This document shows positions 826 through 44,543 of a stretch of 64,000 bases of DNA, piece after piece; position 1 is the first letter of the stretch; every line of letters begins with the position of its first letter. Made by a program: the position numbers and the translations under genes. The DNA lies in contig NZ_AP018721.1 in assembly GCF_003967275.1 (NCBI RefSeq), positions 1,302,001 to 1,366,000 of the forward strand, in the 5' to 3' direction. Origin of the DNA: Sulfuritortus calidifontis. Its GTDB lineage: Bacteria; Pseudomonadota; Gammaproteobacteria; Burkholderiales; Thiobacillaceae. Below the pieces are notes generated by a model. The model ran no database searches, was not told the origin of the DNA, and saw only the letters and a list, made by a program, of their open reading frames with translations.

Positions 826-1188
826 GGGGGCGACCTGGTTTCGACGTGGGTTGCAAAGCAGTTAGGGCATACCGAGGAGCGGGCTACCTCGTTAATCCAT
901 CCGTCATCAAGATAGTCGCCAACGACGAATCTTACGCTCTGGCCGCTTAAGGCCGGACGCTGCACCGATCGGCCTGCGGGTCGGGCTGGGTAAAACCAGC
1001 AGCAGCGTCATAAACAGCAGGAGCAAGGCAAGCCTGAGCCGCGGGGGCTTGCACGGAAACCTAGCGGATCGCTCGTAACCAGCCTGCCGGTCGGCGGGTT
1101 GCGGGTCAAATCAAACGACCAGGCTAAGTATGTAGAACTGACTGTAGAGGGCTTGCGGACGCGGGTTCGATTCCCGCCGCCTCCACCA
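826..1188 (+). ncRNA. ssrA: Transfer-messenger RNA (tmRNA)
   Basis: A 363-nt tmRNA. The 5' end GGGGGCG pairs with CGCCTCC just before the ACCA at the 3' end (one G-U pair), forming the acceptor stem; CCA is encoded at 1186-1188. A tRNA-like T arm with TTCGATT lies near 1166-1172. The tag reading frame at 918-950 encodes ANDESYALAA and then TAA, a typical proteobacterial degradation tag. The RNA rescues stalled ribosomes with SmpB and marks the peptide for ClpXP. The gene is intact although an element is inserted at its 3' end, as is usual for ssrA-integrating elements. Confidence 0.98.
1156..1169 (+). repeat. Left attachment-site candidate (attL core)
   Basis: A 14-base sequence in the tmRNA T arm recurs identically at 55630-55643, beyond the last prophage cargo gene. 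Downstream of it both copies continue with a CCA-like end, a terminator hairpin and a similar stretch containing GTTGGCGCGG, but with many differences. Insertion into the 3' end of tmRNA genes is a well-known habit of phages and islands. The exact crossover point cannot be fixed from one sequence. Confidence 0.6.
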
Positions 1189-1968: not shown

Positions 1969-2336
1969 GCGTCCTCCTCAAAGCGCTTCACGATCTGGCG
2001 TTGAGCTTCCCAATCCACCGGAAGCGGGTTGCGCTGGAACCAGATCAGGTTCATCCGGCGCGGCTGCCGTCCGGCCATCAGCAGTTCGAGGATGTCGGGC
2101 GCGAGCAGGGTCAGACGCATCAGCTCGTTGGGCACCGAGGGGTGCAGTCCTTCGGCCCGGGCAATGTCTGATCCACTCTTCATCACACCGGTGTCCACGA
2201 GGTGCTGCCAGTAGAAACCGCGTGCCACCCCCTCCAGCAGCGTCACATCGTGAACGTGGCGGTCGTCGGCGGCCACCCGCCGCGCGCCCCGGCGGCGAAA
2301 CGTCAGGGGCACGAAGGTTTCCAGTGTGTCGTCCAT
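1965..2336 (-). CDS. Recombinase-associated protein, paralog of the next gene
   Basis: A 123-residue protein coupled by ATGA overlaps to the recombinase upstream and to the 157-residue protein downstream. It shares LETFVP near the N-terminus, SDIARAEGLHPSVPNELMRL in the middle (HTH-like) and LTLLAPDIL with the downstream protein. The C-terminus (FQRNPLPVDWEAQRQIV) is distinct. Small proteins of this type accompany DUF2924-linked serine recombinases. The strict translational coupling suggests they act with the recombinase, possibly as a recombination directionality factor or DNA-bending subunit; no direct evidence for that is visible. Confidence 0.75.
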   Translation of the reverse strand: MDDTLETFVPLTFRRRGARRVAADDRHVHDVTLLEGVARGFYWQHLVDTGVMKSGSDIARAEGLHPSVPNELMRLTLLAPDILELLMAGRQPRRMNLIWFQRNPLPVDWEAQRQIVKRFEEDA

Positions 2337-3715
2337 CAGGCTTCGACCTCCACCAGTTCCGCGCCGATGCCCCTTGGGGCAAACTCACCGATCAGGGCGT
2401 CCCAGCCCAGTTCCCGCCACTTCACCTTGATGCCCTGCACCTCGCCGACGTGGACGAGGTCGATGCGCTCGATCATCAGGTTGGCGATTCGGTGACGCTC
2501 GACCGGGAACAACTGATCCCACACGTCGTTGAGCCGTCCCATCGCCATCACCGTGGTGGCCTCGTCGATCTGACCGCCGTTGCGCTGGATGTGGCGCACC
2601 ACCGATGCGATGGATTCCGGGCTGGTCAGCACCGTGCGGATCTGAGCCACCACTGCAGCCTCAATCTCCGGCGCAGGTAAGCGCTCGTAGCTTTTGCCCG
2701 GTGCCCCGAACCTGCTTTCCGACTTGGACACGTAGTAGTGGTACTTGCGCCCGTTCTTGCGTGAGTAGGTCGGGTACATCCGTTCGCCCGAGGGGGCGTA
2801 CAGCAGGCCGCGCAGCAAAGCGTCGGTGCGCGACCGGATCTTGGTTTCCACCGACCGGGTGTGCCCATCCCTGGCCAGCACCGTGTGGACCTTGTCCCAA
2901 AGCTCCTGGTCGATGATCGGCGGGTGAGCGCCGGGGTACCAGTTCCCCTTGTGCGACAACTCCCCCAGGTAGATGCGGTTGCGCAGCAGCTTGTGCAGGT
3001 ACTTCTTGTCGATGCGCGTGCCGCTGCGGGTCTGGCCCTCCTGCGTCGTCCAGGCCTTGGTAGTGATGCCGTCGGCGGTGAGGTTGACGGCGATCTGGGT
3101 TGGAGAACCAATGGTCAGCATCTCCTCGAAGATGCGACGCACCACCGCCGCCTCGGTTTCGTTGATGACCAGGAGGCGGTTGTCGACGTCGTAGCCGAGG
3201 GGCGGGACACCGCCCATCCACATCCCCTTGCGCTTGGCGGCCGCGATCTTGTCGCGGATGCGCTCGCCGGTGACCTCGCGCTCAAACTGGGCGAAAGAAA
3301 GCAGGACGTTGAGCATCAGCCGCCCCATCGAGGTGGTGGTGTTGAACTGCTGGGTGACCGACACAAAGGACACCTCGTGGCGTTCGAACACTTCGACCAT
3401 CTTGGAGAAGTCGGCCAAGCTGCGCGTCAGGCGGTCGATCTTGTAGACCACCACGATGTCGATCTGGCCGCGCTCAATGTCCGCCATCAGGCGTTTCAGC
3501 CCGGGCCGATCCGTGTTGCCGCCTGAGAAGCCAGGGTCGTCGTAGTCGTCGGCCACAGAGATCCAACCCTCGGATCGCTGGCTGGCGACGTAGGCGTGGC
3601 CCGCCTCCTTCTGGGCGTCGATGGAGTTGAACTCCTGGTCAAGCCGTTCATCCGAGGACACCCGACAGTAGACGGCGCAGCGCTTGCGGGCGCGGGTAGC
3701 GGCGATCTCGCTCAT
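2336..3715 (-). CDS. Serine site-specific recombinase (likely prophage integrase)
   Basis: A 459-residue serine recombinase. The N-terminal resolvase domain has AVYCRVSSDE (catalytic Ser), FSGGNTDRPGL, and the arginine-containing YKIDRLTRSLADF. GYDVDNRLLVINETEA begins the 'recombinase' domain near residue 190. A longer frame extends upstream, but the ATG at 3715 begins MSEIAATRARKRCAVYC and overlaps the upstream gene by ATGA, so that start is chosen. The zinc-ribbon position reads LLYAPSGERMYPTYSRKNGR, without the cysteines found in many large serine integrases. It is the only integrase-type gene in the element and lies next to ssrA, so it is probably the integrase. Most ssrA-targeting elements use tyrosine recombinases, which makes this worth checking. 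Confidence 0.9.
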   Translation of the reverse strand: MSEIAATRARKRCAVYCRVSSDERLDQEFNSIDAQKEAGHAYVASQRSEGWISVADDYDDPGFSGGNTDRPGLKRLMADIERGQIDIVVVYKIDRLTRSLADFSKMVEVFERHEVSFVSVTQQFNTTTSMGRLMLNVLLSFAQFEREVTGERIRDKIAAAKRKGMWMGGVPPLGYDVDNRLLVINETEAAVVRRIFEEMLTIGSPTQIAVNLTADGITTKAWTTQEGQTRSGTRIDKKYLHKLLRNRIYLGELSHKGNWYPGAHPPIIDQELWDKVHTVLARDGHTRSVETKIRSRTDALLRGLLYAPSGERMYPTYSRKNGRKYHYYVSKSESRFGAPGKSYERLPAPEIEAAVVAQIRTVLTSPESIASVVRHIQRNGGQIDEATTVMAMGRLNDVWDQLFPVERHRIANLMIERIDLVHVGEVQGIKVKWRELGWDALIGEFAPRGIGAELVEVEA

Positions 3716-4164
3716 CGGGCACCTCCCTTGCTCAGGCCAAAGAACAGCGGCCCAGACCAGTGCGCGCCGGTGATGTGGCGGGCCACCGCCGTCAAGCTCT
3801 TGAAATTGCGCCCCTGGTACTCGAACAGCCCCTCGGCGGTGACTGTCACCCGGTGCTCGCGTTCGCCCCATTCGCGCAGCAGGATCGTGCCCGGCGCGAA
3901 ATCGAACTCGCGCGGCTTGGCCCGCAACTTGATCTTGGAGTGTTTCGCGCCGATGGCCTCCAGACGCTGCTTGGTCTCGGGCGCGAGGCCACCGAAGGCC
4001 TCCTCCTGTAGCTTGTAGGCGATCCGGGACTCGACGTGGGTGCGGTTGGGGTAGTCCGGGCGGCGCGGGAAATACCGATCCCACACCGTCCAGAGCTCGG
4101 ACATTGGCAGGCAGGCCAGCTCCGCGATCCGTGCCGCGACGGATGCTTGTTTCTCGTTCATCAC
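3712..4164 (-). CDS. DUF2924 family protein
   Basis: A 150-residue protein with the DUF2924 hallmarks: LACLPMSELWTVWDRYF, then RTHVESRIAYKLQEEAFGGL, FDFAPGTILLREWGEREHRV, and a C-terminus with SLTAVARHITGAHWSGPLFF. DUF2924 genes are regularly found just upstream of serine recombinases in proteobacterial prophages, and here the two overlap by ATGA. The molecular role is not established; the basic SRIAYKLQ and the RHITG segments would suit DNA binding. It is probably an obligate partner of the recombinase. Confidence 0.88.
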   Translation of the reverse strand: MMNEKQASVAARIAELACLPMSELWTVWDRYFPRRPDYPNRTHVESRIAYKLQEEAFGGLAPETKQRLEAIGAKHSKIKLRAKPREFDFAPGTILLREWGEREHRVTVTAEGLFEYQGRNFKSLTAVARHITGAHWSGPLFFGLSKGGAR

Positions 4165-4352
4165 AACTTCTCCTCTTGATAGGGGGTTGTATGAACGCGC
4201 TGGTCGGGCAGGAAGCCAAGGCCAACTTCTCTCTGTTTCGGCTCATCCGCAGCAAGGGTGCGGACGATTGCAGCCGCAAGGATGGCGGCGATTTCGCCAG
4301 CACGGGCGCTGGCACTCATCTCCGTGGGAGATGCGAGTTCGAGGTTCTTCAT
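4161..4352 (-). CDS. Small protein, first gene of recombinase operon
   Basis: A 63-residue protein that starts the minus-strand operon; its stop overlaps the DUF2924 start by ATGA. The ATG at 4352 is preserved after a GGAG-like site, so it is preferred to the start seven codons upstream. The N-terminal half is Ala-rich and helical; the end reads LGFLPDQRVHTTPY. The DNA encoding that end is one of four copies of a conserved element (see 19667, 20326 and 20629), which elsewhere lies in leaders of small minus-strand genes. Function unknown. Confidence 0.6.
   Translation of the reverse strand: MKNLELASPTEMSASARAGEIAAILAAAIVRTLAADEPKQREVGLGFLPDQRVHTTPYQEEKL
4193..4220. repeat. Conserved leader element, copy 1
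   Basis: GAACGCGCTGGTC, then seven bases, then GAAGCCAAG. It matches the elements at 19667-19708, 20326-20371 and 20629-20657. Here it lies inside the end of a small gene and 30-60 bases upstream of the DUF2924 start on the minus strand, the same spacing seen for the other copies relative to their downstream genes. Confidence 0.6.
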
Positions 4353-4448
4353 GACGGCTCCGAGGAATTGCAACCGTCAGGGATAGTGAGCCTGATCTTC
4401 CGAAGCGGATGGCAACGCAGGGTAATCGTGCCCGCCAGCCATGAATTT

Positions 4449-4520
4449 ATTGCGCGTTAACGAAACAGTTGACAGAGTACCTCTGGGCCTCTACCATCTA
4501 TCGTTAACTAATCACGCAAT
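4449..4520 (+). promoter_or_regulatory. Immunity promoter bracketed by operator-like boxes
   Basis: TTGACA at 4469-4474 and TACCAT at 4492-4497 are 17 bases apart, a good sigma-70 promoter for the XRE-ImmA genes. It is bracketed by ATTGCGCGTTAACGA (4449-4463) and, in inverted orientation, TCGTTAACTAATCACGCAAT (4501-4520). A related box lies at 5679-5696. Binding of the XRE regulator would block this promoter and could also affect the divergent recombinase operon, whose start lies about 100 bases to the left. Binding is inferred from symmetry and position. Confidence 0.65.
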
Positions 4521-4532
4521 CAGGTCACAACC

Positions 4533-4811
4533 ATGCCCTTTGGAGCATTCATCCGCAAAAAGCGCGAAGAGAAAGGCATTCAGATGAATGACTTTGCGCG
4601 CCAGCTGGAGATATCACCCGCCTACTGGTCGCGCATCGAGCGCGACATGGAGAAACCGCCCAAGGACGAGCTGATCCGCAAGGCGGCAGAGATCCTCGGT
4701 ATCAGCGCCGACGACGCCTTCGTTGAGGCCAGTCGTCTGCCTCCCGACATCCGCGATGATGTTGGCAACCTGGTTCGGATGTACCGCCGGAACGTGACGG
4801 AGAAGAAGTGA
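4533..4811 (+). CDS. XRE-family helix-turn-helix regulator
   Basis: A 92-residue Cro/CI-type DNA-binding protein. The HTH reads FARQLEISPAYWSRIERDM and is followed by AAEILGISADDAF. The stop codon abuts the ATG of the ImmA/IrrE gene, so the two are translationally coupled. XRE-ImmA pairs control lysogeny in several mobile elements: the metalloprotease removes the repressor when induced. The promoter upstream is flanked by inverted boxes that are probably its operators. No dimerisation domain of the lambda CI type is present, so repression must be relieved by the partner rather than by self-cleavage. Confidence 0.9.
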   Translation: MPFGAFIRKKREEKGIQMNDFARQLEISPAYWSRIERDMEKPPKDELIRKAAEILGISADDAFVEASRLPPDIRDDVGNLVRMYRRNVTEKK

Positions 4812-5624
4812 ATGGCGGTACTGACTCTCGACTACCGGTGCTGCGACCGGAAGCGCCCCCTGTACATCAAGCACATTGAGGTCGAACGCATCGCCGCGAC
4901 CGCGCGCCAGCAACTGGTCGCGGACAGCATCGATGCCATTTCTTTCGACGCGCTGCGGCAGATCTCCGGCCTGAAGATCAACGGCATCGACTTCGCGCTG
5001 GAGGTCAGCACCGACTACGCCGTGCATGACGAGCGAGGCAACCACGTCTTCGGCGTCTGTGAATTCGACCCCGCTATGCCCGACGCCGCAATGGTGTCCA
5101 TCTCGCCCGTGGGTGAAAGTCTCAGCGAACTGCTGGCCCTCAGCACCTTGGCCCACGAACTGGGCCACGCCGTGTTCGACGCCCCCGGTTGGGTTGTCCA
5201 GGGCAGTAAGGGCCCCGGGTTGTTCGATGACATCGAACCGACGATGCAACGCGCCTACCGCACCACGACGCCGGACAGCGACCATCTGTCCAAATCACTA
5301 TCTGCGAAGCCAACGACGGAAGAACACTTCGCCGAGCTGCGCGCCAACGAGTTCATGGGCTCCTTGCTCGTGCCGCGCCAGCGCATCATCGCCGCCGTCG
5401 AAGAGCTTGCATCCGAGCACGACATCACCATCCATCGCCATCCCTCCACCGATCCCGACCACCCCGGTACGGCGCTGCGCATCACGGCGGGCAGCGACAC
5501 AGGCGTTTTCGACATGGAACGTTTCGAGAAAGCCTTGGCCGCGCGCTTCGGCGTCAATCGCCGGTTCATCCAAGTACGTCTGAACCGGTATGGCCTGACT
5601 ACTCCGGAGGCCTCGATGCGCTGA
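4812..5624 (+). CDS. ImmA/IrrE family metallopeptidase
   Basis: A 270-residue M78-family zinc protease. The HExxH motif is HELGHAVF near residues 115-122, with an upstream strand containing FGVCEFDPAMPDAAMVSISP. A possible third zinc ligand lies in TTEEHFAELRANEFMGSLLVP, as in ImmA proteins. It probably cleaves the XRE regulator encoded directly upstream, with no gap between the genes. The C-terminal part (DMERFEKALAARFGV) resembles the helical end of this family. A terminator follows at 5646-5669, and the operator-like box just after it suggests that the next two genes are controlled by the same regulator. Confidence 0.9.
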   Translation: MAVLTLDYRCCDRKRPLYIKHIEVERIAATARQQLVADSIDAISFDALRQISGLKINGIDFALEVSTDYAVHDERGNHVFGVCEFDPAMPDAAMVSISPVGESLSELLALSTLAHELGHAVFDAPGWVVQGSKGPGLFDDIEPTMQRAYRTTTPDSDHLSKSLSAKPTTEEHFAELRANEFMGSLLVPRQRIIAAVEELASEHDITIHRHPSTDPDHPGTALRITAGSDTGVFDMERFEKALAARFGVNRRFIQVRLNRYGLTTPEASMR

Positions 5625-5645
5625 CCAGGATCTACCGCCTGTGGA

Positions 5646-5669
5646 GCCGACCTCGCGTCGGCGTTTTTT
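5646..5669 (+). terminator. Terminator after ImmA/IrrE gene
   Basis: Stem GCCGAC (5646-5651), loop CTCGC, stem GTCGGC (5657-5662), then GTTTTTT. It separates the XRE-ImmA pair from the following two-gene unit. Confidence 0.85.
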
Positions 5670-5678
5670 GAACCATCC

Positions 5679-5696
5679 GATTAACTGTTCGCGCAA
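5679..5696 (+). promoter_or_regulatory. Third operator-like box, upstream of the 474-residue protein
   Basis: ATTAACTGTTCGCGCAAT closely matches the box at 4503-4520 (TTAACTAATCACGCAAT): 14 of 18 positions agree. It lies between the terminator at 5646-5669 and the ATG at 5725, so the downstream two-gene unit is probably under the same repressor. Confidence 0.6.
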
Positions 5697-5724
5697 TCGC
5701 GCACTTTGTCAAAGGAACTTGCCT

Positions 5725-7149
5725 ATGCCAGCTGACCAAGCCTCAACAACAAAGAAAAGCACCAAGTTGGCGACGAGCCACCCTGCAGTAAAACGTGCGC
5801 GTGAGCATCGATCCGATGAGGGCGCAAACATCCTGCCGAACGCAGAGAACTTCGTCAGCCTCGTGCGCAAGGTCGCGCGCCCCGGGCTGCTGGTGGATCT
5901 GCTCGAACGCGCCAGCGCGACGGCACTGCCGGAGTTGAAGGCATTGGCAGAAGCGGCCAAGGGCAAGTTGCCAGTCGAGTCGCGTCAGGCACTCTTTCAT
6001 GCTGTCGGCAAATTGCCGGCGGCCGCCCAGTACAGCATCGAGTGTGCCGCCGAGCGAGTGATGCTCCTTGACGATGACTACGGGGCACAGGCCGTCTTGT
6101 CCCTGCTCAACGAGGATCGTGCGGACGATGCCGCCGTGCTGGCTGCGCCCAGCGACCGCTACAGCCGCGCCCTGTATCTGCACCTCTTGCAGGACTTTCC
6201 GGCGCAAGGCGTCCGCCGCGACGAACGCTTCGATCAGGCTGAGCATCTGCAAGTGATGCATCGCCAGTGGAAAAGCGACCACTACTCCAGCCACTACCTG
6301 GGCCCCAAGGGCGTCGTGCCGAAGACTGGGGTCGACGTTCAAGAGGTGTTGCGCACACGCATTGCCGAGCTGTTCCCGAAGGTGCCGAAGGATCAAATCC
6401 TGATCGAGCAATTCACGCGCCGCGATCTGTCATGCGAACAGGGTGATGACGATGATTGCGAAGCTGGTCAGTCGGCGCTGTTGCACACGCTAACCGCGAC
6501 CTTCAATGGCAAGACGGCCACGTTCCAGCAAGTGGCGAACGGGCATGTCGTCGACCACGAGGAACCCGCTGCGATGTCGGCCCGCTTCTCGTGGGAGCCG
6601 GAGACTGGCTCGCTCAGCGTGTTCTGCGAAGAACGGGAGGCGCGCCGCGAGCTGGCCACCGTCTTCCGCGATGTCGCGCTGGCGCACGAAGGCCAGATCG
6701 AGGACATGCCCATGCGGCAGTTCGACCTGCTCGGCTTTGCGACCTCCAAGATGCTCGACCGCCTCAAGCGTGATCGGGTTGCAGGTATCGACGACATCTC
6801 GATTCTGCAAATCACGGTGGCCAAGCCGTTCGAGCAAACATCAGAGTACGGCGGACGTGATGTGGTGCGGCAACTCTCCAGCAAGATGCAAATCACCCGC
6901 GACCGGCGTGACGGCCGCAACATCTATCAGGTTGCTTATGAGGACTACTGCGCCGAAGACCTGAGCCAGTACACGCTCGTGCAGGTGAAGTTGGTCATGC
7001 GGATGTCCAAAACGCAACACCGCAAGGCGCACAACGTGGCGGTCCAAATCACCGCGCCAAACGGGCTGAACGACAAGAGCAGGACGGACGACGACCGCAA
7101 GCGCGTGCAGGAACAGCTCATCAAGATCGGCGTACTGAGCCAGTTCTGA
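5725..7149 (+). CDS. Unrecognised 474-residue protein in immunity region
   Basis: The frame is open from 5641, but AAAGGA at 5711-5716 sits eight bases before the ATG at 5725 (MPADQASTTKKSTKL), which is taken as the start. The N-terminus is basic and Ser/Thr/Lys-rich; the middle is helical, with LVDLLERASATALPELKAL and LHLLQDFPAQGVRR; an acidic QGDDDDCEAG stretch lies near residue 250; the C-terminal half is more mixed (MRQFDLLGFATSKMLDRLKR). No signal peptide, membrane segment or family motif is recognised. It is preceded by a box shared with the XRE promoter and followed after 11 bases by a 312-residue protein, so the two probably act together. The position between repressor and early genes suggests a lysogenic-conversion or defence role, as inference. 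Confidence 0.75.
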   Translation: MPADQASTTKKSTKLATSHPAVKRAREHRSDEGANILPNAENFVSLVRKVARPGLLVDLLERASATALPELKALAEAAKGKLPVESRQALFHAVGKLPAAAQYSIECAAERVMLLDDDYGAQAVLSLLNEDRADDAAVLAAPSDRYSRALYLHLLQDFPAQGVRRDERFDQAEHLQVMHRQWKSDHYSSHYLGPKGVVPKTGVDVQEVLRTRIAELFPKVPKDQILIEQFTRRDLSCEQGDDDDCEAGQSALLHTLTATFNGKTATFQQVANGHVVDHEEPAAMSARFSWEPETGSLSVFCEEREARRELATVFRDVALAHEGQIEDMPMRQFDLLGFATSKMLDRLKRDRVAGIDDISILQITVAKPFEQTSEYGGRDVVRQLSSKMQITRDRRDGRNIYQVAYEDYCAEDLSQYTLVQVKLVMRMSKTQHRKAHNVAVQITAPNGLNDKSRTDDDRKRVQEQLIKIGVLSQF

Positions 7150-7160
7150 GGAGGACGCCG

Positions 7161-8099
7161 ATGACGTCGCCGCATCTGAGCTTCTTCCTCGCGCTAGACA
7201 ACCTTCCACGGCTCGACGCATCAGTGCTGGCTGACAGGCTCGGGCGCGACTACCAGCAGTTTCTTCAGAGGCGCTGGATCGTGCCCGCAGGCCATCTCAC
7301 CCATGTGATGGTGCCGTTTCTCGATTCCGAACAGGAAGTCGAAGTCGATGTCGACGAAGACGCCGGTCGCTACAGCTACTGCAGTCCGCTGAACGGCAGA
7401 ACCGTCGTCCAACCGCTGGCTGGGATCGCCCTCTATTCCATCCAGATGGATTCGTGGCTGGCGGATCTGTCGGCGTTGATCGGCATTGAGGATAGGCGAC
7501 GCTCCAGCAACATCTGCCGCACACCGAATCACCTGTGGCACCTCGGTGAGCAGCGTATCGCTGGTACGCACGATTTCGCACCGGTGTTCGTTTCCCGAGC
7601 ATGGTCACGCGCGCCGCAGGACAAGATCACCGCAGTGCTTGCCGACGCCGTGTGGCCGCGTGGTGGCGTTGTTTTGTGCCCAACGCGAACCAATGCCTCA
7701 CTACCCCGTGACCACACGCTACGCGGCCTCGATGAGTTCGTGCGCGTGTCCGATGGAGCAGATGCGTTCGACACCGACGCCTTTGATCGTGTCCTGCGCG
7801 GCTACGCAACCCACGTGGGTGAGCCGGAGCCGGCGCAGTTCTTCAATGGCAAGCGACTCAAGCTCCCGCACATGGCGTCGTCCATCGATCTCACCGAAGC
7901 GCGCGCCAAGATCATCAAGCTGATGTGGGGGACCGAAGGAAGTGCCCCGCCCGTGATGTCGTGGAAAGAGGTGAATGGTGCCGTCACCGTCAACACAGGC
8001 TTTCAATCCTTCGACGATGCCTTCGGCGGCAAGGTTGCGCGTGAGGAGGTGATTGAGCTGGTTTCGCGCGGGAAATACCGGGTGAGGCGCAACACATAA
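7161..8099 (+). CDS. Unrecognised 312-residue partner protein
   Basis: The start ATG at 7161 follows AGGAGG at 7149-7154. It is the second gene of a two-gene unit with the 474-residue protein. It has a hydrophilic N-terminal third with SEQEVEVDVDEDAGRYSY, a central IALYSIQMDSWLADLSALIG, and ends with AREEVIELVSRGKYRV. No domain, membrane span or catalytic motif is recognised. In many proteobacterial prophages such unknown genes sit just right of the XRE-ImmA pair. It may form a complex with the upstream product; this is a guess from spacing and co-orientation. Confidence 0.72.
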   Translation: MTSPHLSFFLALDNLPRLDASVLADRLGRDYQQFLQRRWIVPAGHLTHVMVPFLDSEQEVEVDVDEDAGRYSYCSPLNGRTVVQPLAGIALYSIQMDSWLADLSALIGIEDRRRSSNICRTPNHLWHLGEQRIAGTHDFAPVFVSRAWSRAPQDKITAVLADAVWPRGGVVLCPTRTNASLPRDHTLRGLDEFVRVSDGADAFDTDAFDRVLRGYATHVGEPEPAQFFNGKRLKLPHMASSIDLTEARAKIIKLMWGTEGSAPPVMSWKEVNGAVTVNTGFQSFDDAFGGKVAREEVIELVSRGKYRVRRNT

Positions 8100-8150
8100 A
8101 CGCACCCATAAATCGAACCAGACACGGCCCATAAACCCGTGCGGAGACTG

Positions 8151-8182
8151 CGATGTGCCCATTTCATACAGGAGGCACATCG
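8151..8182 (+). promoter_or_regulatory. Inverted repeat over a ribosome-binding site
   Basis: CGATGTGCC (8151-8159) and GGCACATCG (8174-8182) form a perfect nine-base stem with a 14-base loop. The AGGAGG ribosome-binding site of the next gene (ATG 8185) straddles the loop and the right arm. In RNA the hairpin would hide the site; as DNA the same symmetry could be an operator. Confidence 0.65.
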
Positions 8183-8184
8183 AA

Positions 8185-8442
8185 ATGCAAACCCACTTCA
8201 CCAACGCAACATCTGGCCTGATCCCGGCCAAAACCGGTGCGCCACAGCGCATCGCCCTTGACGAAAACGAGCTCGCCATCCGCTGGGGGCTTTCCGTCAA
8301 GACCCTGCGCCGCTGGCGGCAGGAACAACTCGGCCCGGTCTTCTGCAAGCTCGGTGCCCGCGTCACCTACCTGATCTCCGAGGTCGAAGCCTTCGAGCGT
8401 CGCGTTTCGCGGCACTCGACCTTCACTCGTGCATACCAGTGA
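8185..8442 (+). CDS. Small HTH DNA-binding protein (AlpA/excisionase-like)
   Basis: An 85-residue protein if started at the ATG at 8185 (MQTHFTNATSGLIPAKTG), which has a clear AGGAGG before it; an in-frame GTG at 8155 lies upstream inside a hairpin. The fold signature is ENELAIRWGLSVKTLRRWRQ followed by GARVTYLISEVEAFERR, that is a winged-HTH/MerR-like excisionase domain. Such proteins act as early regulators or excisionases. Being first in the early operon, it may be a regulator or a directionality factor for the recombinase. Which of the two cannot be decided from sequence. Confidence 0.8.
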   Translation: MQTHFTNATSGLIPAKTGAPQRIALDENELAIRWGLSVKTLRRWRQEQLGPVFCKLGARVTYLISEVEAFERRVSRHSTFTRAYQ

Positions 8443-8453
8443 GGAGAGCGGCC

Positions 8454-8936
8454 ATGAGCGATCTGACCATCTTTCCCGCCGACCTCGCTGCCATGAGCAC
8501 CGCCCAGTTGGTGGCGCTGCCGATCACCGATTTCGTCGCTGCCGAGCGCAATGTCGACGAGGCCTCCGCCTACCTCAAGCAGCTGCGCACCAAGCTGGAC
8601 GCCGCCAAGTTGCAGCGTTTCGGCGAGCAGGCGCGCGCCGCGCTGCGTGACTCTGGCCGCGACTTCGGCACCGCCCACGTCAACGACGGCGCGCTGCACG
8701 TCAAGTACGAACTCCCCAAGAAGGTGATCTGGAGCCAGACCATCCTCAAGGAGATGGCCGAGCGCATCGTCGCCTCGGGCGACAAGGTGGAGGACTACAT
8801 CGACATCAAGTTGTCGGTGTCCGAGTCCCGCTACACCAACTGGCCCACGGCGCTGCAGGAGCAGTTCGCCGCCGCCCGCACGGTCGAGGAAGGCAAGCCG
8901 ACCATCACCCTGACGCTCGATGGGGGTGTGGCATGA
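8454..8936 (+). CDS. Phage early protein of recombination module
   Basis: A 160-residue protein starting at ATG 8454 after GAGGAG; a GTG at 8439 is an unlikely alternative. The N-terminus is a helical, coiled-coil-like stretch (VDEASAYLKQLRTKLDAAKL), followed by a beta-rich part with LHVKYELPKKVIWSQ. It overlaps the following ATPase by ATGA. Genes of this type sit immediately before Sak4-like ATPases in related prophages. No enzymatic motif is seen; a structural partner of the annealing or recombination complex is plausible but unproven. Confidence 0.75.
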   Translation: MSDLTIFPADLAAMSTAQLVALPITDFVAAERNVDEASAYLKQLRTKLDAAKLQRFGEQARAALRDSGRDFGTAHVNDGALHVKYELPKKVIWSQTILKEMAERIVASGDKVEDYIDIKLSVSESRYTNWPTALQEQFAAARTVEEGKPTITLTLDGGVA

Positions 8937-9778
8937 GCCTTCCCATCATCTCCGCGAAGCAGCGCATGGCCGAGCGCAAGGGCGTCAAGCTGCTGATGCT
9001 CGGCAAGTCCGGCATCGGCAAGACCACCCGGCTCAAAGACCTCGATCCGAAGACCACGCTGTTCATCGACATCGAGGCCGGTGACTTGGCGGTGGCCGAC
9101 TGGCCGGGCGACACCATCCGTCCGGCTTCGTGGCCGGAGAGCCGCGACTTCTTCGTGTTCCTCGCGGGCCCGGACAAGTCGCTGCCGCCTGAGAGCGCCT
9201 TCTCGCAGGCGCACTACGACCACGTCATCGAGAAGTTTGGAGACCCGGCGCAACTCGACCGCTACCAGACCTTCTTTCTCGATTCGATCACCCAGCTGTC
9301 GCGCCAATGCTTCGCGTGGTGCAAGACGCAGCCCGGTGCAACCAGCGACCGCTCCGGCAAGCCTGACCTGCGCGCGGCCTATGGCCTGCTCGGCCAGGAA
9401 ATGATCAGCGCATTGACCCACTTGCAGCACGCACGCGGCAAGAACGTGGTGTTCGTGTCGATCCTCGACGAAAAGCTCGATGACTACAACCGCAATGTGT
9501 TTGTGCCTCAGATCGAGGGCAAGCAAACCGTCGGCGCGCTCATCGGCATCGTCGATGAGGTCGTGACGCTGGCCGAGATCAAGGCCGAGGACGGCAGCAC
9601 CTACCGCGCCTTCGTCACCCACACCGTCAATCCCTACGGCTTTCCGGCCAAAGACCGCAGCGGTCGCCTCGACCTGCTGGAGCCGCCGCATCTGGGTGCG
9701 CTGATCGCCAAGTGCGCGGGCACAACCGCCGCGCCTGCCAGCGCCGCCACCCCCGCACACATCGAATCTCAGGAGTAA
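8933..9778 (+). CDS. Sak4-like phage ATPase (AAA_24)
   Basis: A 281-residue RecA-fold ATPase with Walker A GKSGIGKTT at residues 24-32, a strand FIDIEAGD after it, and a Walker B-like TFFLDSITQL near residue 110. This is the pattern of Sak4/AAA_24 phage proteins, which promote single-strand annealing during phage recombination. Its partner in such phages is a single-strand binding protein, and the next gene (starting six bases later) fits that role. The C-terminal 20 residues are Ala/Pro-rich and disordered. The start overlaps the preceding gene by ATGA. Confidence 0.85.
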   Translation: MSLPIISAKQRMAERKGVKLLMLGKSGIGKTTRLKDLDPKTTLFIDIEAGDLAVADWPGDTIRPASWPESRDFFVFLAGPDKSLPPESAFSQAHYDHVIEKFGDPAQLDRYQTFFLDSITQLSRQCFAWCKTQPGATSDRSGKPDLRAAYGLLGQEMISALTHLQHARGKNVVFVSILDEKLDDYNRNVFVPQIEGKQTVGALIGIVDEVVTLAEIKAEDGSTYRAFVTHTVNPYGFPAKDRSGRLDLLEPPHLGALIAKCAGTTAAPASAATPAHIESQE

Positions 9779-12501: not shown

Positions 12502-12743
12502 GCAACGACAAGCAATTCATCGGAGATGTCGAACCAATGATCGACGCCAAGCAGGCCGCTGCCGCACTGCGCCTGCCGTACTACTGGTTCGCCGACCCGC
12601 AGATGCGCAGCAAGTACAAGATTCCGCACTACCTGATGGGCGGTCTGGTGCGCTATCGACCATCCGAACTGTCTGCGTGGGCAGCCCGCAGCACCGCCGC
12701 GCAAGGGCGCACCGGTGACGCCGATGGTGAGGAGGCCGAATGA
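12498..12743 (+). CDS. Small HTH DNA-binding protein
   Basis: An 81-residue protein, MSNDKQFIGDVEPMIDAKQA, with AAAALRLPYYWFADPQMRSK and VRYRPSELSAWAAR, the pattern of small excisionase-like winged helix proteins. It sits between the exonuclease and the primase-helicase and overlaps both by ATGA. Small proteins here often help load the primase or mark an origin; there is no direct evidence for this one. Confidence 0.75.
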   Translation: MSNDKQFIGDVEPMIDAKQAAAALRLPYYWFADPQMRSKYKIPHYLMGGLVRYRPSELSAWAARSTAAQGRTGDADGEEAE

Positions 12744-15040
12744 CCATCGACTTCAACGACATCGCGCCACTGCCCGACCCCATCCGCCGCACCCTGAGTG
12801 ATGTCGAGCGCGAAGAACTGCGTGCTGAACTGCTCGCGCGTCTTGAGTCCGTTCTGACCACCTTGTTCCCGGCGGGCAAGAAGCGCCGTGGCAAGTTCCT
12901 GATCGGCGACGTGCTGGGCAGTCCCGGCGACAGCCTCGAGGTGGTGCTCGATGGCGAGAAGGCCGGACTGTGGACGGATCGAGCCACTGGCGATGGCGGC
13001 GACATCTATGCACTGATCGCCGCGCACCTCGGTATCGACGTGCTGAGCGACTTTCCGCGTGTGCTCGACGCCGCTGCCGATCTGCTCGGACGCTCGCGTT
13101 CCGCACCAGTACGCAAGGCCAGCAAGAAGGACGTGCCGGTCGACGAACTCGGCCCCGCCACCGCGAAGTGGGACTATCTCGACGCCCAAGGCCATCTCAT
13201 CGCCGTCGTCTATCGCTACGACCCGCCTGGGCAGAAGAAACAGTTTCGGCCCTGGGATGCCAAGCGGCGCAAGATGGCACCGCCCGACCCGCGTCCGCTC
13301 TACAACCAGCCAGGGATGACCAGTACCGCGCAGGTGGTGCTGGTCGAGGGCGAGAAATGCGCGCAGGCCCTGATCGATGTGGGCATCGCGGCCACCACGG
13401 CGATGCACGGCGCGAACGCTCCGGTCGATAAGACCGACTGGTCGCCGCTGTCTGGAAAGGCCGTGCTGATCTGGCCCGACCGCGACAAGCCGGGCTGGGA
13501 GTACGCCACGCAGGCGGCACAGGCGGTGCTGTCGGCTGGCGCCAAGTCCTGCCACATCTTGTACCCGCCCGAAGAAGCCGCCGAGGGCTGGGACGCGTTT
13601 GATGCCATCGCCGAGGGCTTCGACGTCGCCACCTTCCTCACTCACGGCCCGCGCCTGCAAATGCACGACGTCGCCGATGACGTTGATCCAGTCGTCAGCA
13701 GCGACGAATCCGTCTGGGGTACGGAGGACGCGCTGGCGCTGTCCTTCACGCGCCGCTACCACCGCGACTGGCGCTACGTGGCTGGCTGGGGAAAGTGGCT
13801 GGTGTGGGACGGGCAACGCTGGCGCACCGAGGACACGTTGGCGGCCACGGACTTGATCCGCAGCGTTTGTCGCCAGACGGCTGTACGCGCCGACAACCCC
13901 AAGGTCGCTGCCAAATTGGCCAGCGCAGGAACGGTCGGCGGTGTGGAACGCCTGGCGCGTGCTGACCGCAGGCACGCGGCCACTACCGACGAATGGGATG
14001 CAGATCCGTGGCTGCTCAACACGCCAGGCGGCGTGGTCGATCTCAAGACAGGCCGGATGCGCCCGCACGAGCGCGCCGATCGGATGACCAAGATCACCAC
14101 AGCCACGCCCAGCGGCGACTGCCCGACCTGGAGGCAGTTCATCGACGAGGTCACGGGCGGTGACAAGGAACTGCAGTCCTATCTGCAACGGATGGTCGGC
14201 TACGCGCTGACCGGATCGACGCAAGAGCACGCGCTGTTTTTCCTGTACGGCACAGGTGCGAACGGCAAGTCGGTGTTCGTCAACACGCTGGCCACCATCC
14301 TCGGTGATTACGCGACCAATGCGCCGATGGACACCTTCATGGAAACGCGCACCGACCGGCACCCGACCGATATGGCGGGACTGCGCGGCGCGCGCTTCGT
14401 GGCGGCCATCGAAACCGAACAGGGAAAACGCTGGGCCGAGTCGAAGCTCAAGAACCTCACCGGTGGCGACAAGATCTCGGCGCGCTTCATGCGCCAGGAC
14501 TTCTTCGAGTTCTTCCCGCAGTTCAAGTTGTTCGTGGCGGGCAACCACAAGCCCGCGATTCGCAATATCGACGAGGCGATGAAACGCAGGCTGCACCTGA
14601 TCCCTTTCACGATCACCGTGCCGCCCGAGCGCCGCGACAAGAACCTGCAACAGAAGCTCCTGGCCGAACGTGACGGCATCCTCGCGTGGGCCGTGCAGGG
14701 CAGTCTCGACTGGCAGCGCCACGGACGACTCAGCCCGCCACAACGCGTGGTGGACGCCACCGAGGAGTATTTCGAAGCCGAGGACGCCCTGGGCCGCTGG
14801 CTCGATGAGCGCTGCGTGCGCGAGCCCAACGCCAAGTCGCTGACCGCCGAGCTGTTCAACGACTGGAAGCAGTGGGCTGAAGCCTCTGGCGAGTTTGTCG
14901 GCGCACAACGCCGCTTTTCCGATCTGCTCATCACGCGCGGGTTGGACAAATGGCGCAACGGGATGGGCGTGCGCGGGTTCCAGGGTATTGGCCTCAAGCA
15001 CCCGCCGACCCCTGCCTACACCCCCTACGCGGACGACTGA
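12740..15040 (+). CDS. Phage primase-helicase (TOPRIM plus D5/SF3 helicase)
   Basis: A 766-residue replication protein. Near residue 200 VVLVEGEKCAQAL is the TOPRIM nucleotidyl-transfer strand (catalytic Glu), with AVLIWPDRDKPG as the second acidic motif. From about residue 340 there is a D5-type N-terminal region, and the SF3 helicase Walker A LYGTGANGKSVF lies near residues 502-513, followed by RFVAAIETEQG and FKLFVAGNHKP. The C-terminus is a winged helix-like tail. It would make primers and unwind the phage origin. No N-terminal CHC2 zinc finger is seen. It is unrelated to host DnaG and marks the phage as self-replicating. Confidence 0.93.
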   Translation: MTIDFNDIAPLPDPIRRTLSDVEREELRAELLARLESVLTTLFPAGKKRRGKFLIGDVLGSPGDSLEVVLDGEKAGLWTDRATGDGGDIYALIAAHLGIDVLSDFPRVLDAAADLLGRSRSAPVRKASKKDVPVDELGPATAKWDYLDAQGHLIAVVYRYDPPGQKKQFRPWDAKRRKMAPPDPRPLYNQPGMTSTAQVVLVEGEKCAQALIDVGIAATTAMHGANAPVDKTDWSPLSGKAVLIWPDRDKPGWEYATQAAQAVLSAGAKSCHILYPPEEAAEGWDAFDAIAEGFDVATFLTHGPRLQMHDVADDVDPVVSSDESVWGTEDALALSFTRRYHRDWRYVAGWGKWLVWDGQRWRTEDTLAATDLIRSVCRQTAVRADNPKVAAKLASAGTVGGVERLARADRRHAATTDEWDADPWLLNTPGGVVDLKTGRMRPHERADRMTKITTATPSGDCPTWRQFIDEVTGGDKELQSYLQRMVGYALTGSTQEHALFFLYGTGANGKSVFVNTLATILGDYATNAPMDTFMETRTDRHPTDMAGLRGARFVAAIETEQGKRWAESKLKNLTGGDKISARFMRQDFFEFFPQFKLFVAGNHKPAIRNIDEAMKRRLHLIPFTITVPPERRDKNLQQKLLAERDGILAWAVQGSLDWQRHGRLSPPQRVVDATEEYFEAEDALGRWLDERCVREPNAKSLTAELFNDWKQWAEASGEFVGAQRRFSDLLITRGLDKWRNGMGVRGFQGIGLKHPPTPAYTPYADD

Positions 15041-16615: not shown

Positions 16616-18037
16616 TTGAACACGCTCAACGTCGAGTACCGCAAGGTCGAGGCGCTGATTCCTTACGCCCGCAATCCGCGCACGCACGCCGAGAGCCAGA
16701 TCGCCAAGATCGCGGCCAGCATCGTCGAGTACGGTTGGACGAATCCGATCCTGGTCGACGGCGACAACGGCATCATCGCCGGGCACGGGCGTTTGGCCGC
16801 TGCGCGCAAGCTCGGCCTGGATCAGGTGCCGGTGATCGAACTTGCGCACCTGACCCCGGCGCAGAAGCGCGCGCTCGTCATCGCCGATAACCGGCTGGCG
16901 CTGGATGCGGGCTGGGACGAGGAGCTGCTGGCGCTGGAACTGGCCGAGCTTTCCGAGGCCGGGTACGAGCTGGCGCTGACCGGCTTCGAGCGGTTCGAGA
17001 TCGACGCGCTGCTGGCCGATGCCGCCATTGCCGATGAGCCAGAGCAGCAGGATGCGGAAGCTGATGCCGAGCCCGACGCCGACGATGACGTGCCGGGTAC
17101 GCCGGTGGTGCCGGTGTCGCGCCCGGGCGACGTCTGGCAGATCGGGGCACACCGCTTGATCTGCGGCGACGCCACCGACCCGAGCGTGATCGCCGCACTG
17201 ATGCAGGGTGACCTCTCTCGCCTGTGCTTCACCTCGCCTCCCTACGGCAACCAGCGCGACTACACCTCCGGCGGCATCTCCGATTGGGATGGCCTGATGC
17301 GTGGCGTGTTCGCGCACCTGCCGATGGCAGGCGACGGTCAGGTGCTGGTCAACCTGGGCCTGATCCACCGCGACAACGAGGTGATCCCGTATTGGGACGG
17401 CTGGTTATCCTGGATGCGTCAACAAGGTTGGCGGCGCTTCGCGTGGTACGTCTGGGATCAGGGTCCAGGGATGCCCGGCGACTGGGCAGGCCGCTTCGCG
17501 CCGAGCTTCGAGTTCGTCTTTCACTTCAACCGGGAGAGCCGTAAGCCGAACAAGATCGTCCCCTGCAAGCACGCAGGCCAGGAATCCCACCTGCGCGCCG
17601 ACGGGTCGTCCACCGCGATGCGCGGCAAGGATGGCGAGGTGGGCGGCTGGACGCACAAGGGGCTGCCGACGCAAGACACCCGTATCCCCGACTCGGTGAT
17701 CCGCGTGATGCGCCACAAGGGCAAGATCGGCCAGGACATTGACCACCCGGCCGTGTTCCCGGTGGCGCTGCCGGAATTCGTGATCGAGGCTTACACGGAC
17801 GCGGGCGACATCGTGTTTGAGCCCTTCGGCGGCAGCGGCACGACGATGCTGGCCGCCGAGCGCACCGGTCGGATCTGCTGCAGCGTGGAGATCGCCCCGC
17901 AGTACGTGGACGTGGCCATCAAGCGGTTCCAGCAGAACCACCCCGGCATACCGGTCACCTTGATCGCCACCGGTCAGTCCTTCGAGCAGGTCGCCGTTGA
18001 GCGCGCCACCACCCCGGATGCCGAGGTGGTGGCATGA
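16616..18037 (+). CDS. ParB-like domain fused to DNA methyltransferase (TSPPY type)
   Basis: A 473-residue protein. Residues 1-120 form a ParB/Srx-like domain: IPYARNPRTHAESQIAKIAA, GIIAGHGRLAAARKLGL and ALVIADNRLAL. The rest is a beta-class DNA methyltransferase: catalytic motif FTSPPYGNQ near residue 205, and the SAM-binding FEPFGGSGTTM near residue 402, in that order. TSPPY is more typical of N4-cytosine enzymes. The start is TTG at 16616, since the conserved ParB strand begins about ten residues in. It overlaps a second fusion of the same design by ATGA. No restriction partner is adjacent; methylation of phage DNA against host restriction is the likely role. Confidence 0.9.
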   Translation: MNTLNVEYRKVEALIPYARNPRTHAESQIAKIAASIVEYGWTNPILVDGDNGIIAGHGRLAAARKLGLDQVPVIELAHLTPAQKRALVIADNRLALDAGWDEELLALELAELSEAGYELALTGFERFEIDALLADAAIADEPEQQDAEADAEPDADDDVPGTPVVPVSRPGDVWQIGAHRLICGDATDPSVIAALMQGDLSRLCFTSPPYGNQRDYTSGGISDWDGLMRGVFAHLPMAGDGQVLVNLGLIHRDNEVIPYWDGWLSWMRQQGWRRFAWYVWDQGPGMPGDWAGRFAPSFEFVFHFNRESRKPNKIVPCKHAGQESHLRADGSSTAMRGKDGEVGGWTHKGLPTQDTRIPDSVIRVMRHKGKIGQDIDHPAVFPVALPEFVIEAYTDAGDIVFEPFGGSGTTMLAAERTGRICCSVEIAPQYVDVAIKRFQQNHPGIPVTLIATGQSFEQVAVERATTPDAEVVA

Positions 18038-19296
18038 ACTGGCTGGCCGACAAGATCGAACAGTGGCCTACCGCCAAGCTGCTGCCCTACGCCCGCAACG
18101 CGCGCACCCATTCCGAAGACCAGGTAGCGCAGATCGCTGCCAGCATCGCGGAGTTTGGATTCACCAATCCGATCCTGGCGGGCAGTGACGGGATCATCGT
18201 CGCGGGCCACGGTCGTCTCGCCGCCGCCCAGAAGCTCGGGCTGGAGCGGGTGCCTGTCGTGGTGCTCGACCATCTGAGCCAGACGCAGCGCCGGGCCCTG
18301 GTCATTGCGGACAACCGCATCGCCGAGAACGCGGGCTGGGACGACGCGATGCTCAGGATTGAACTGGAAGCCTTGCAGCTCGATGGTTTCGATCTGGACA
18401 TCACCGGCTTCGACGCCGACGCACTGGCCGAACTGATCGCGGGCGACGAGCCGGACAACGAGGGCCAGACCGATGAGGATGCGGTACCCGAGGTCAGCGA
18501 GACACCCATCTCGCGTCCGGGCGATGTCTGGGTCATGGGCCAGCACCGGCTGCTGTGTGGCGACTCGACCGTGGCCGAGAGCTACGAGCGCCTGATGCGA
18601 GGCGCGGCGGCGGACATGGTCTTCACCGATCCGCCGTACAACGTGAACTACGCTAACAGCGCCAAGGACAAGATGCGCGGCAAGGATCGCGCCATCCTCA
18701 ACGACAACCTCGGTGATGGCTTCTACGATTTCCTGCTGGCGGCACTGACGCCCACCGTCGCCCATTGCCGGGGCGGTATCTACGTGGCGATGTCCTCCAG
18801 CGAACTCGATGTGCTGCAGGCTGCCTTCCGCGCCGCTGGTGGCAAATGGTCGACCTTCATCATCTGGGCCAAGAACACCTTCACGCTGGGACGCGCCGAC
18901 TACCAACGCCAGTACGAGCCGATCCTGTACGGATGGCCCGAGGGGGCGACACGCCACTGGTGCGGCGACCGCGACCAGGGCGACGTCTGGAACATCAAGA
19001 AGCCGCAGAAGAACGACCTGCACCCGACGATGAAGCCGGTGGAGCTGGTCGAGCGCGCGATCCGCAATTCGAGTCGCCCCGGCAACGTGGTGCTCGACCC
19101 GTTCGGGGGCTCGGGGACGACCTTGATCGCTGCGGAAAAGTCAGGCCGCGTTGCGCGGCTGATCGAACTCGATCCGAAGTACGTGGACGTGATCGTGCGC
19201 CGGTGGGAGGACTTCACCGGCAAGCAGGCCACCCGGGAGGCGGATGGCGCGGTGCTCGATCAGGCGGCAAGCGACTCCTCAACGATCTCGCAGTGA
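18034..19296 (+). CDS. ParB-like domain fused to DNA methyltransferase (DPPY type)
   Basis: A 420-residue paralog of the preceding gene. The N-terminal ParB-like domain reads LPYARNARTHSEDQVAQIAA, IIVAGHGRLAAAQKLGL and ALVIADNRIAE. The methyltransferase half has FTDPPYNVNY (motif IV, near residue 200) and LDPFGGSGTTLIAAE near residue 352. DPPY suggests N6-adenine methylation, so the pair may modify two different bases or sequences. The last 37 bases overlap the end of a convergent small gene. ParB-Mtase fusions are frequent in phages, but a tandem pair with different catalytic motifs is less so. Confidence 0.9.
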   Translation: MNWLADKIEQWPTAKLLPYARNARTHSEDQVAQIAASIAEFGFTNPILAGSDGIIVAGHGRLAAAQKLGLERVPVVVLDHLSQTQRRALVIADNRIAENAGWDDAMLRIELEALQLDGFDLDITGFDADALAELIAGDEPDNEGQTDEDAVPEVSETPISRPGDVWVMGQHRLLCGDSTVAESYERLMRGAAADMVFTDPPYNVNYANSAKDKMRGKDRAILNDNLGDGFYDFLLAALTPTVAHCRGGIYVAMSSSELDVLQAAFRAAGGKWSTFIIWAKNTFTLGRADYQRQYEPILYGWPEGATRHWCGDRDQGDVWNIKKPQKNDLHPTMKPVELVERAIRNSSRPGNVVLDPFGGSGTTLIAAEKSGRVARLIELDPKYVDVIVRRWEDFTGKQATREADGAVLDQAASDSSTISQ

Positions 19297-19628: not shown

Positions 19629-19666
19629 CTCTGGCTCCTTCGGGTTGATCGTTGCGACACCCGTAG

Positions 19667-19708
19667 TAACGCGCTGTTCGATTGAGAAGCCAAGCGCCGC
19701 TTGGCCTC
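19667..19708 (-). promoter_or_regulatory. Conserved leader element, copy 2, with hairpin
   Basis: TAACGCGCTGTTC (19667-19679) followed by GAAGCCAAGC (19686-19695), loop GCC, GCTTGGCCTC (19699-19708). The last two form a nine-of-ten-base hairpin. On the minus strand this precedes the gene starting at 19628 by about 40 bases. Confidence 0.6.
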
Positions 19709-20289: not shown

Positions 20290-20325
20290 TTGCTGCTCCT
20301 TCGGGGGTGGTGATGACGATGTGAT

Positions 20326-44535: not shown

Positions 44536-44543
44536 GGGGGCTC

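Follow-up and report, generated by a model that had tools for sequence, protein, structure and literature searches.

Several described systems resemble, each in part, the locus treated here. In ICEBs1, the ImmR/ImmA switch combines an XRE repressor, which has boxes at its own promoter and at the genes it controls, with an M78 protease, and CapH and CapP are the helix-turn-helix (HTH) and M78 regulators of the cyclic oligonucleotide-based antiphage signaling system (CBASS). Regulators of the PhoB/OmpR type use 11-bp tandem sites; in the lambdoid O/ori system, reader domain and iterons are exchanged as one piece, and repressor-operator sets are often more diverged than other phage genes. Lambda RexA (PF15969)/RexB and actinophage RexA are encoded in the immunity region beside the repressor, and lambda RexA is reported to be a DNA-binding dimer of RdgC/Iml3/Chl4 fold that acts on the lytic switch in favour of the lytic state (Adams et al., 2024, PMC11077077). 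Here, we analyse a prophage within a stretch of 64 kb from Sulfuritortus calidifontis (contig NZ_AP018721.1, positions 1,302,001 to 1,366,000; hereafter the window), in which an XRE-ImmA pair is followed by two genes, here called A and B, a short array of direct repeats and an early operon that starts with an HTH_17 gene. On balance, we lean towards the view that the products of A and B assemble, as two subunits, into a complex that binds DNA in a sequence-specific manner and would act as the second tier of a lysis-lysogeny switch.

As in switches of the ImmR/ImmA type, an XRE HTH protein and an M78 protease stand in tandem in the window, with candidate operators, i.e. conserved boxes, at the XRE promoter and before A; what differs from ICEBs1 is that the controlled genes are A-B, seemingly a second regulatory tier with an array of its own. 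The likeness to CapH/CapP lies in the HTH and M78 regulators (in PADLOC, XRE scores the capH model at E 1.3e-5 and ImmA the capP model at E 5.4e-4), but the pair in the window would control phage-core genes and not a CBASS operon. The model of B resembles the PhoB/OmpR-type regulators in the shape of its C-terminal winged helix-turn-helix, and the head-to-tail repeats about one turn apart may correspond to their tandem sites, but no receiver domain was found in B. By analogy with RexA, A may be a dimer that binds DNA and affects the lytic switch, but there is no detectable sequence similarity between the two and A has an extra N-terminal helical part; moreover, B is modelled with a winged helix and not as a membrane protein like RexB, and neither an array nor a co-exchange is described for Rex in the consulted part of the source (PMC11077077). 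The fold likeness to RdgC (PF04381) concerns the C-terminal half of A; unlike RdgC, A has B as its partner and is accompanied by XRE-ImmA or PIN genes. Gp6 of the relative AcaML1 likewise represents A-B in a phage reported to be inducible and integrated in ssrA (PMC3826726), but it is fused, stands behind a PIN/HTH_17 pair instead of XRE-ImmA, and no 11-12-bp array was found with it.

In the switch that we propose, XRE would bind the boxes at its own promoter and before A as the first tier, and ImmA would presumably remove XRE upon a host signal, putatively by cleavage. The A-B complex would then be made from a putative promoter before A, and the winged helix of B would dock on three or four direct repeats placed about one per DNA turn (11-12 bp), with A, of RexA/RdgC/CENP-N-like fold, as the candidate dimerising and DNA-gripping subunit. 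Once bound, A-B would control the early operon, with its excision, recombination and replication functions, and most likely activate it. The preference for an activator follows from the known logic of ImmR-type switches, in which activation occurs on induction. Comparison across relatives supports three elements of this scheme, namely the XRE boxes, the unity of A-B and the co-exchange of reader and array, and it is this evolutionary evidence that suggests docking on the array.

The linkage between the winged helices of B and the repeats is close. Among the winged-helix clusters, cluster 0 (45 rows) had CCATAA/G repeats in 43 rows and no repeat in two, cluster 1 (14 rows) had CCGTA/CCGGA in 13 and none in one, and all seven rows of cluster 2 had CCGGA. 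No crossover was found, i.e. cluster 0 never occurred with CCGTA/CCGGA and clusters 1 and 2 never with CCATAA; clusters 3, 5, 6 and 9 (11 rows) carried CCATAA or CATAAG, and the remaining 8 rows had different motifs or none of this kind. A first binary coding of the alleles had given 13 apparent mismatches among 74 rows, which comprised 11 diverged allele-1 relatives (clusters 3, 5, 6 and 9) coded as the other type and two repeat-less rows. When the test was confined to clusters 0, 1 and 2 (61 rows, of which 58 have repeats), the latter two being pooled for their common CCGGA, the tree of A contained 10 changes of reader type and 0/58 rows with repeats disagreed, and on supported branches the independent exchanges agree in 6/6 pairs (p 0.031, the lowest value possible for six); the other 24 of the 85 rows belong to other clusters, have no A or are duplicates.

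Pairwise identity profiles delimit what has been exchanged. Between L031 and L035 (the prefix L marks related loci), identity is 83-97% up to about nucleotide 660 of B (codon 220), 50-65% from there to just past the stop codon and 88-98% in the leader. A like tract is seen in L012/L019 and L014/L016 (70-97% before, 87-100% just after) and a longer one in L001/L005, the exchanged tract reaching from B codon ~220-240 to about the array end with a nearby identity of 73-98% on both sides. From these profiles, the exchanged tract corresponds to the winged helix plus the array, and this linkage of reader and array points to the phage's own DNA.

In most relatives, direct repeats 11-12 bp apart stand right after the stop codon of B. 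A lag-12 repetition was reached by at most 2 of 300 shuffles in 9/13 regions (L031, L016, L156, L151, L090, L175, L177, L179 and L180), and was not significant in this test in L091, L183, AcaML1 and the window itself. In a scan of 343 spacing combinations over 22 regions, several of them related, (12,11,12) with 499 and (12,12,11) with 485 scored highest (mean 402, standard deviation 19); for three-repeat alleles, (12,12,11) was not ranked first. The sole test on unseen sequences comprised 22 previously unused intergenic regions, perhaps seven independent groups and without shuffles, of which lag 11/12 was best in 17.4 (ties shared), multiples in 3.5 and others in 1, the winged-helix alleles, the repeat motifs and most array regions (13 cut by hand) having been defined after viewing the sequences. 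In L179, an array of 10 CTACC units precedes the HTH_17 gene while A-B lies beyond XRE-ImmA, and by this layout the array belongs to the HTH_17 operon, on which A-B would act in trans.

Repeats that are exchanged together with their reader could also be read as an origin, with A-B as the replication initiator of the phage, in which B would read the array as iterons, A would open or hold the DNA and XRE-ImmA would keep replication off. The lambdoid O/ori exchange is a precedent for such a swap, A-B belongs to the phage core and stands ahead of the Sak4 and primase genes, and L180 has 15 repeat units in 558 bp. However, the phage encodes a primase/helicase of its own, an AT-rich stretch could not be made out by eye beside the array, A-B sits with the integrase and away from the replication genes in L178/L179, and AcaML1-type phages have no array. 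We consider an initiator unlikely.

Downstream of the array, a hairpin encloses the ribosome-binding site of the HTH_17 gene, with a stem that changes on both sides across relatives (CGATGTGCC/GGCACATCG, CAATGTGCC/GGCACATTG, CGGTATGCC/GGCATACCG, GGGACTCC/GGAGTCCC and others). Of 14 stems checked, 11 were fully paired, and five folded leaders, one of them incomplete, had z values of -0.3 to -3.2; the element appears to control the first early gene at the level of translation.

The link between XRE and A-B rests on the boxes. The 18-mer ATTAACTGTTCGCGCAAT before A has a single site in the window at up to 3 mismatches, because the box at the XRE promoter differs from it at 4 positions, whereas the relaxed pattern RTTAACNNNTCRCGCAAY has exactly two sites in the 64 kb, at the XRE promoter and before A, both mismatch-free. 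Since 0.49 chance sites are expected for this pattern at up to 2 mismatches and 6/100 shuffles reach two, the window alone is weak evidence for the box, and its reality is decided by comparison across relatives. Among 20 loci hand-picked from the nearer relatives (L079, L080 and L047 left out, L012 counted by hand), the box was present upstream of A without mismatch in 20/20 and upstream of XRE exactly in 17/19 and at up to 1 mismatch in 18/19; elsewhere in the ~238 kb of these loci one further match, with 2 mismatches, was found. When the count was widened to all 72 tandem XRE-ImmA-A loci of distinct flanks, the box stood at up to 1 mismatch before A in 61/72 and before XRE in 62/72, in agreement with the preliminary description of the window, which had noted a box common to both places.

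The 11 misses before A in the wider count comprise L075, L079, L080 and L095, in which the box is missing before A only, plus seven members of the diverged L088-L098/L144 group, in which the box before XRE is missing as well; L079 and L080 keep the box on the XRE side and have only a half-like element before A. Before XRE only, the box is missing in L045, L055 and L137, where for L055 the 20-locus count did find it and the wider count took a longer reading frame. In the relatives, the boxes form conserved blocks inside otherwise changing intergenic DNA, together with the intrinsic terminator between immA and A, a feature absent from the preliminary description. From this conservation and the co-evolution described below, A-B are very probably under the XRE repressor, as the preliminary description had supposed.

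A and B behave as one unit across a wide range of relatives. A, searched alone, led to 51 viral and 26 genome loci, including one in Extensimonas vulgaris DSM 100911 with an A of 99% identity, and with profiles that reached relatives of ~20% identity the two genes were found adjacent down to that level, being neighbours in the loci that hold both. Loci with A or B alone are mostly contig ends or weak fragments, with L010 and L077 as odd joins; L138 has lost A plus more than half of B. In L010 (4998-9524), an open frame joins A residues 1-367 to a protein that is tape measure-like by eye, which is either a deletion prophage or an assembly error. Gp6 of AcaML1 is a fused A-B protein of 751 aa (A 51 bits, residues 3-404; B 80 bits, 420-726), and A-B is fused in 21/23 loci of two further groups. 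An anchor search without A or B, using the HTH_17 gene (best 80 of 175 hits) and one integrase (8 hits), gave 76 new loci, 61 of which had the HTH_17 gene with at least 2.5 kb upstream. A and/or B were present in 60/61 of these judged loci, and in 40/41 of those not already collected; the exception, L285, has a 252-aa frame in the place of A-B, the end of which is B-like by eye. Judged by these counts, A-B is core to these phages. Such presence, together with the unity of the pair and its tracking of XRE-ImmA, argues against an optional defence cargo.

This tracking is seen in the identity to the window over 77 distinct rows, in which the Spearman correlation with A is 0.95 for XRE, 0.91 for ImmA and 0.82 for B, and 0.37-0.74 for flanking genes. 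In the 50 rows with Sak4 at least 85% identical, the median identity is 69% for ImmA, 70% for A and 63% for B, compared with 90-91% for the integrase, Sak4, O207 and YqaJ; XRE has 89%, DUF2924 78%, HTH_17 74% and O160 68%. One could imagine from this that A-B itself is the true lysogenic repressor, produced in the lysogen and silencing the early operon via the array, with XRE-ImmA tuning its dose: ImmA, A and B are more diverged than the integrase and recombination genes, as is often the case for repressor-operator sets, the last repeat contains a weak -10-like CATAAA (by eye), and since no XRE box was found before the HTH_17 gene in the window, another factor must silence that gene. The XRE boxes before A nevertheless suggest that A-B is off while XRE is present, and in the divergent loci L176 and L180, A-B stands where elements controlled by ImmR have their induced operon. 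This is, from our point of view, improbable.

Four arrangements of the module occur. In arrangement I, that of the window, XRE, ImmA, A, B and HTH_17 are in tandem, and in arrangement II XRE-M78 is divergent from A-B (L176, L179 and L180; M78 E 6e-19 to 9e-16); in L178/L179 the block is turned, with A-B facing the integrase. Arrangement III consists of an M78 protein (in 11/11 such loci; its N-terminus XRE-like by eye), fused A-B and HTH_17, with a PIN-like frame, by eye, in between in L250. In L177, A and B are separate, HTH_3 and M78 are found in one protein (Pfam) and a PIN match is just below the cut-off. In arrangement IV, the AcaML1 type, fused A-B follows an HTH_17-like and PIN pair (gp8-like gene in 12/12 loci, PIN gene in 11/12), divergent from the early operon. 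Immediately ahead of A-B, L188, L233, other AcaML1-type loci, L177 and L250 have PIN genes whose partners are of the HTH_17 type or XRE-M78, and in these PIN-bearing loci A-B may share a promoter with toxin-antitoxin-like pairs.

With regard to the proteins, neither A nor B had a confident match in Pfam, PHROGs, NCBIfam or PADLOC, and profiles of A, B and the B C-terminus had no match among the PDB sequences. At the limits used, nothing was found for A against phage and plasmid sequences or for distant A and for B against phages, while distant B led to AcaML1; the unnamed family phrog_37634 matches 13/30 A members, the distant ones. The earlier statement that the two have no known domain holds in this respect, at the level of sequence and curated families.

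The model of A, built from 30 rows (predicted local distance difference test score (pLDDT) 82, predicted template modelling score (pTM) 0.62), resembles CENP-N/Chl4 and RdgC, i.e. proteins of the fold reported for lambda RexA. In Foldseek against the PDB, the first seven rows are chains that we take to be CENP-N/Chl4 and RdgC (prob 0.75-0.99, two of them at E < 0.001, template modelling score (TM) ~0.2), with RdgC 2owl_B at prob 0.95, E 5.9e-4 and TM 0.16-0.22. In VIA-align, ranks 1-15 for the residues up to 330 are inner-kinetochore chains (CENP-N, Chl4, Iml3 and CENP-L), the best at Z 8.2 with a root-mean-square deviation (rmsd) of 3.3 A over 105 aligned residues and phosphoglucomutases behind at 6.3, and residues 330-474 align with RdgC 2owy (Z 5.9, rmsd 3.1 A, 105 aligned). 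In BFVD, the three entries with a name in the top six are of RdgC type (prob 0.96-0.99), ranks 8 and 9 being annotated as exonuclease; RexA itself (8TWQ) does not figure in the structure-search rows listed for A. Neither PF15969 (RexA) nor PF04381 (RdgC) matched any of 30 A members at E 0.1, and hhalign gave 0.3% for A against a 2-row RexA alignment and 0.5% against 11 RdgC rows, a comparison that is blind to the fold as RexA against RdgC gives 0.1%. PF15969 had no match in 200 genomes either, but as its control gave no match anywhere, this carries no weight. That both parts of A occur in the same domain order as in one two-domain family is encouraging, while a Z of about 8 is no proof. No RdgC match (PF04381) was obtained in the host genome (G000), compared with matches in 11/36 genomes searched from the class.

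The model of B (40 rows, pLDDT 92.5) is that of a mixed alpha/beta protein with short helices and a winged helix. Residues 223-312 match NsrR (5dcm; Z 5.7, rmsd 3.3 A, 81 aligned), the DNA-binding domains of GlnR and SaeR (8hml Z 5.5, 4ixa Z 5.0) and TFIIE (Z 5.7), and B probably ends in a PhoB-like winged helix that reads DNA; the first ~217-220 residues have weak structural neighbours (Can2, Z 5.2). The mid-part of the model has a nuclease-like element order by eye and weak matches to Can2 and Bax1 (Z 5.2 and 3.5). An active PD-(D/E)XK nuclease was rejected for B, as the invariant columns do not hold a D...(E/D)xK set. We also rejected a structural or tail gene, for which A-B gave no hit, and a partition system, as no partition ATPase was noticed beside A-B, where no specific search for one was made. 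Neither replication nor structural families were hit, and the pair is conserved; the findings that would have refuted the preliminary description did not arise.

The position and the fold of A raise the question whether A-B could be a Rex-like exclusion system, in which A with its RexA fold would be made in the lysogen and block other phages together with B. The module lies in the immunity region beside the repressor like rexAB, A-B stands behind a PIN pair in AcaML1-type phages, and XRE and ImmA score the CapH and CapP models. On the other hand, PADLOC gave no match for A or B (E up to 1) or for AcaML1 gp6 (E up to 1e-5), A-B is core and not patchy, B is modelled as soluble with a winged helix, for which a RexB-like membrane partner was rejected, and the reader-array linkage points to the phage's own DNA. 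We therefore regard exclusion as quite improbable, and protection of the lysogen, which the preliminary description had noted as frequent for genes in that place, is not borne out as the main role; a Rex-like exclusion as a side effect of A-B is possible.

Several observations weigh against the preferred reading of A-B as a second-tier complex that docks on the array. In the window itself, the array is short and does not reach significance on its own, a lag-11/12 array upstream of HTH_17 was found in 0/8 AcaML1-type (type IV) phages, and the diverged L079-L098/L144 group has no XRE box before A. With 15 units in L180 and 10 in L179, the arrays of these two loci recall an origin or a centromere more than they do a simple operator. 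A promoter scan of 4100-8500 gave the XRE promoter only and none before A or after the array; since none was found after the array, activation is something that we infer, and A-B may instead repress. Both proteins have fold matches of moderate strength (best Z 8.2 in A and 5.7 in B), which come without a sequence link to RexA or RdgC, and the medians of XRE, HTH_17 and O160 indicate that divergence is not confined to ImmA-A-B. Lastly, the co-exchange could partly be hitch-hiking of neighbouring DNA, which accounts for some of the linkage, yet neither for the recurrence of the spacing nor for the L179 array.

The features of the locus are compiled in Table 1; the reading frames and sizes of XRE, ImmA, A and B had been given correctly before, and for A an in-frame GTG exists at 5641 (open reading frame (ORF) list). 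The small gene beside the integrase presumably is a DUF2924 gene. The prophage adjoins the tmRNA gene ssrA, which lies on its integrase side, and terminase, portal, protease, capsid and tail genes are found further right in the window. AcaML1 was reported to be integrated in ssrA, too, and to be inducible (PMC3826726).

Table 1. Coordinates of the prophage features in the window (position 1 is its first nucleotide).
Feature	Position	Strand	Basis and remarks
tmRNA gene (ssrA)	826..1188	+	ARAGORN; Rfam RF00023
Large serine recombinase (integrase)	2336..3715	-	PHROGs phrog_95 E 1.8e-111; conserved neighbour
Small conserved protein beside integrase	3712..4164	-	ORF; conserved neighbour
Inverted box-like element TTGCGCGTTAAC	4450..4461	-	Conserved in relatives; 7 bp upstream of XRE-promoter -35 (4469-4474)
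XRE box RTTAACNNNTCRCGCAAY	4503..4520	+	Downstream of XRE-promoter -10
XRE repressor, 92 aa	4533..4811	+	HTH_3 E 8.8e-11
ImmA-type M78 metalloprotease, 270 aa	4812..5624	+	Pfam Peptidase_M78 E 4.9e-6; HELGH in sequence
Intrinsic terminator between immA and A	5646..5662	+	Conserved in relatives shown
XRE box upstream of A, ATTAACTGTTCGCGCAAT	5680..5697	+	Comparison across tandem loci
Gene A, 474 aa	5725..7149	+	ORF; parts 33-187 (helical), 188-330, 330-474
Gene B, 312 aa	7161..8099	+	ORF; predicted C-terminal winged helix from ~residue 223 (7827-8096)
Phased direct-repeat array, allele 1, CCATAAA / CCAGACA / CCATAAA, spacing 12 and 11	8106..8135	+	
Hairpin CGATGTGCC...GGCACATCG around ribosome-binding site of HTH_17 gene	8151..8182	+	
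Small HTH_17 / excisionase-like protein, first gene of early operon	8185..8442	+	phrog_66 E 4.1e-7
Sak4-like gene	8933-9778		Downstream in early operon
Primase gene (primase/helicase)	12740-15040		Downstream in early operon

Some further features were observed in the window and its relatives. Right of the tail genes, a region of lower GC (57-63%) at 42769-55558 holds a defence-like cluster, in which a type II restriction-model match is joined by a methyltransferase-like gene of type III, a GajB/DRT-like UvrD helicase and a large protein that is TmtA-like. Four related 37-nt copies (4185-4221, 19659-19695, 20318-20354 and 20621-20657), 68-100% identical to the reference copy, have a AACGCGCTG core and a GAAGCCAAG end, and at 18034-19293 a ParB-like N-terminus is fused to a DNA methyltransferase (phrog_498). 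In L012, L013, L016 and others, ~0.8 kb extra is present between O160 and Sak4, and AcaML1 has a gene annotated as prophage antirepressor at this place.

Overall, the parts of the proposed switch logic are of known kinds, and the new part would be the A-B pair, its fold combination and the exchangeable reader-array cassette, for which no description was found in the searched, non-subscription literature. One could go further and speculate on a new class of phage master switches with A-B as its founding pair, in which a RexA/RdgC/kinetochore fold is joined to a PhoB-like reader and which is core to a large ssrA-side phage family, with reader and array swapped as one ~300-bp cassette that changes the immunity or 'address' of the phage in one recombination step; we regard this as conceivable, though tentative. 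In any case, two gene families without named function, which a widespread and mostly proteobacterial group of phages carries in almost every judged locus, gain a concrete and testable role, and the linked exchange offers natural matched and mismatched reader-array pairs for a direct test of binding specificity. If A indeed has the RexA/RdgC/CENP-N fold, it would add a phage-core regulator to a fold family in which the members from exclusion, recombination and kinetochores are so far poorly linked to each other, and could help to ask whether, in RexA-like proteins, the role in the switch comes before that in exclusion.

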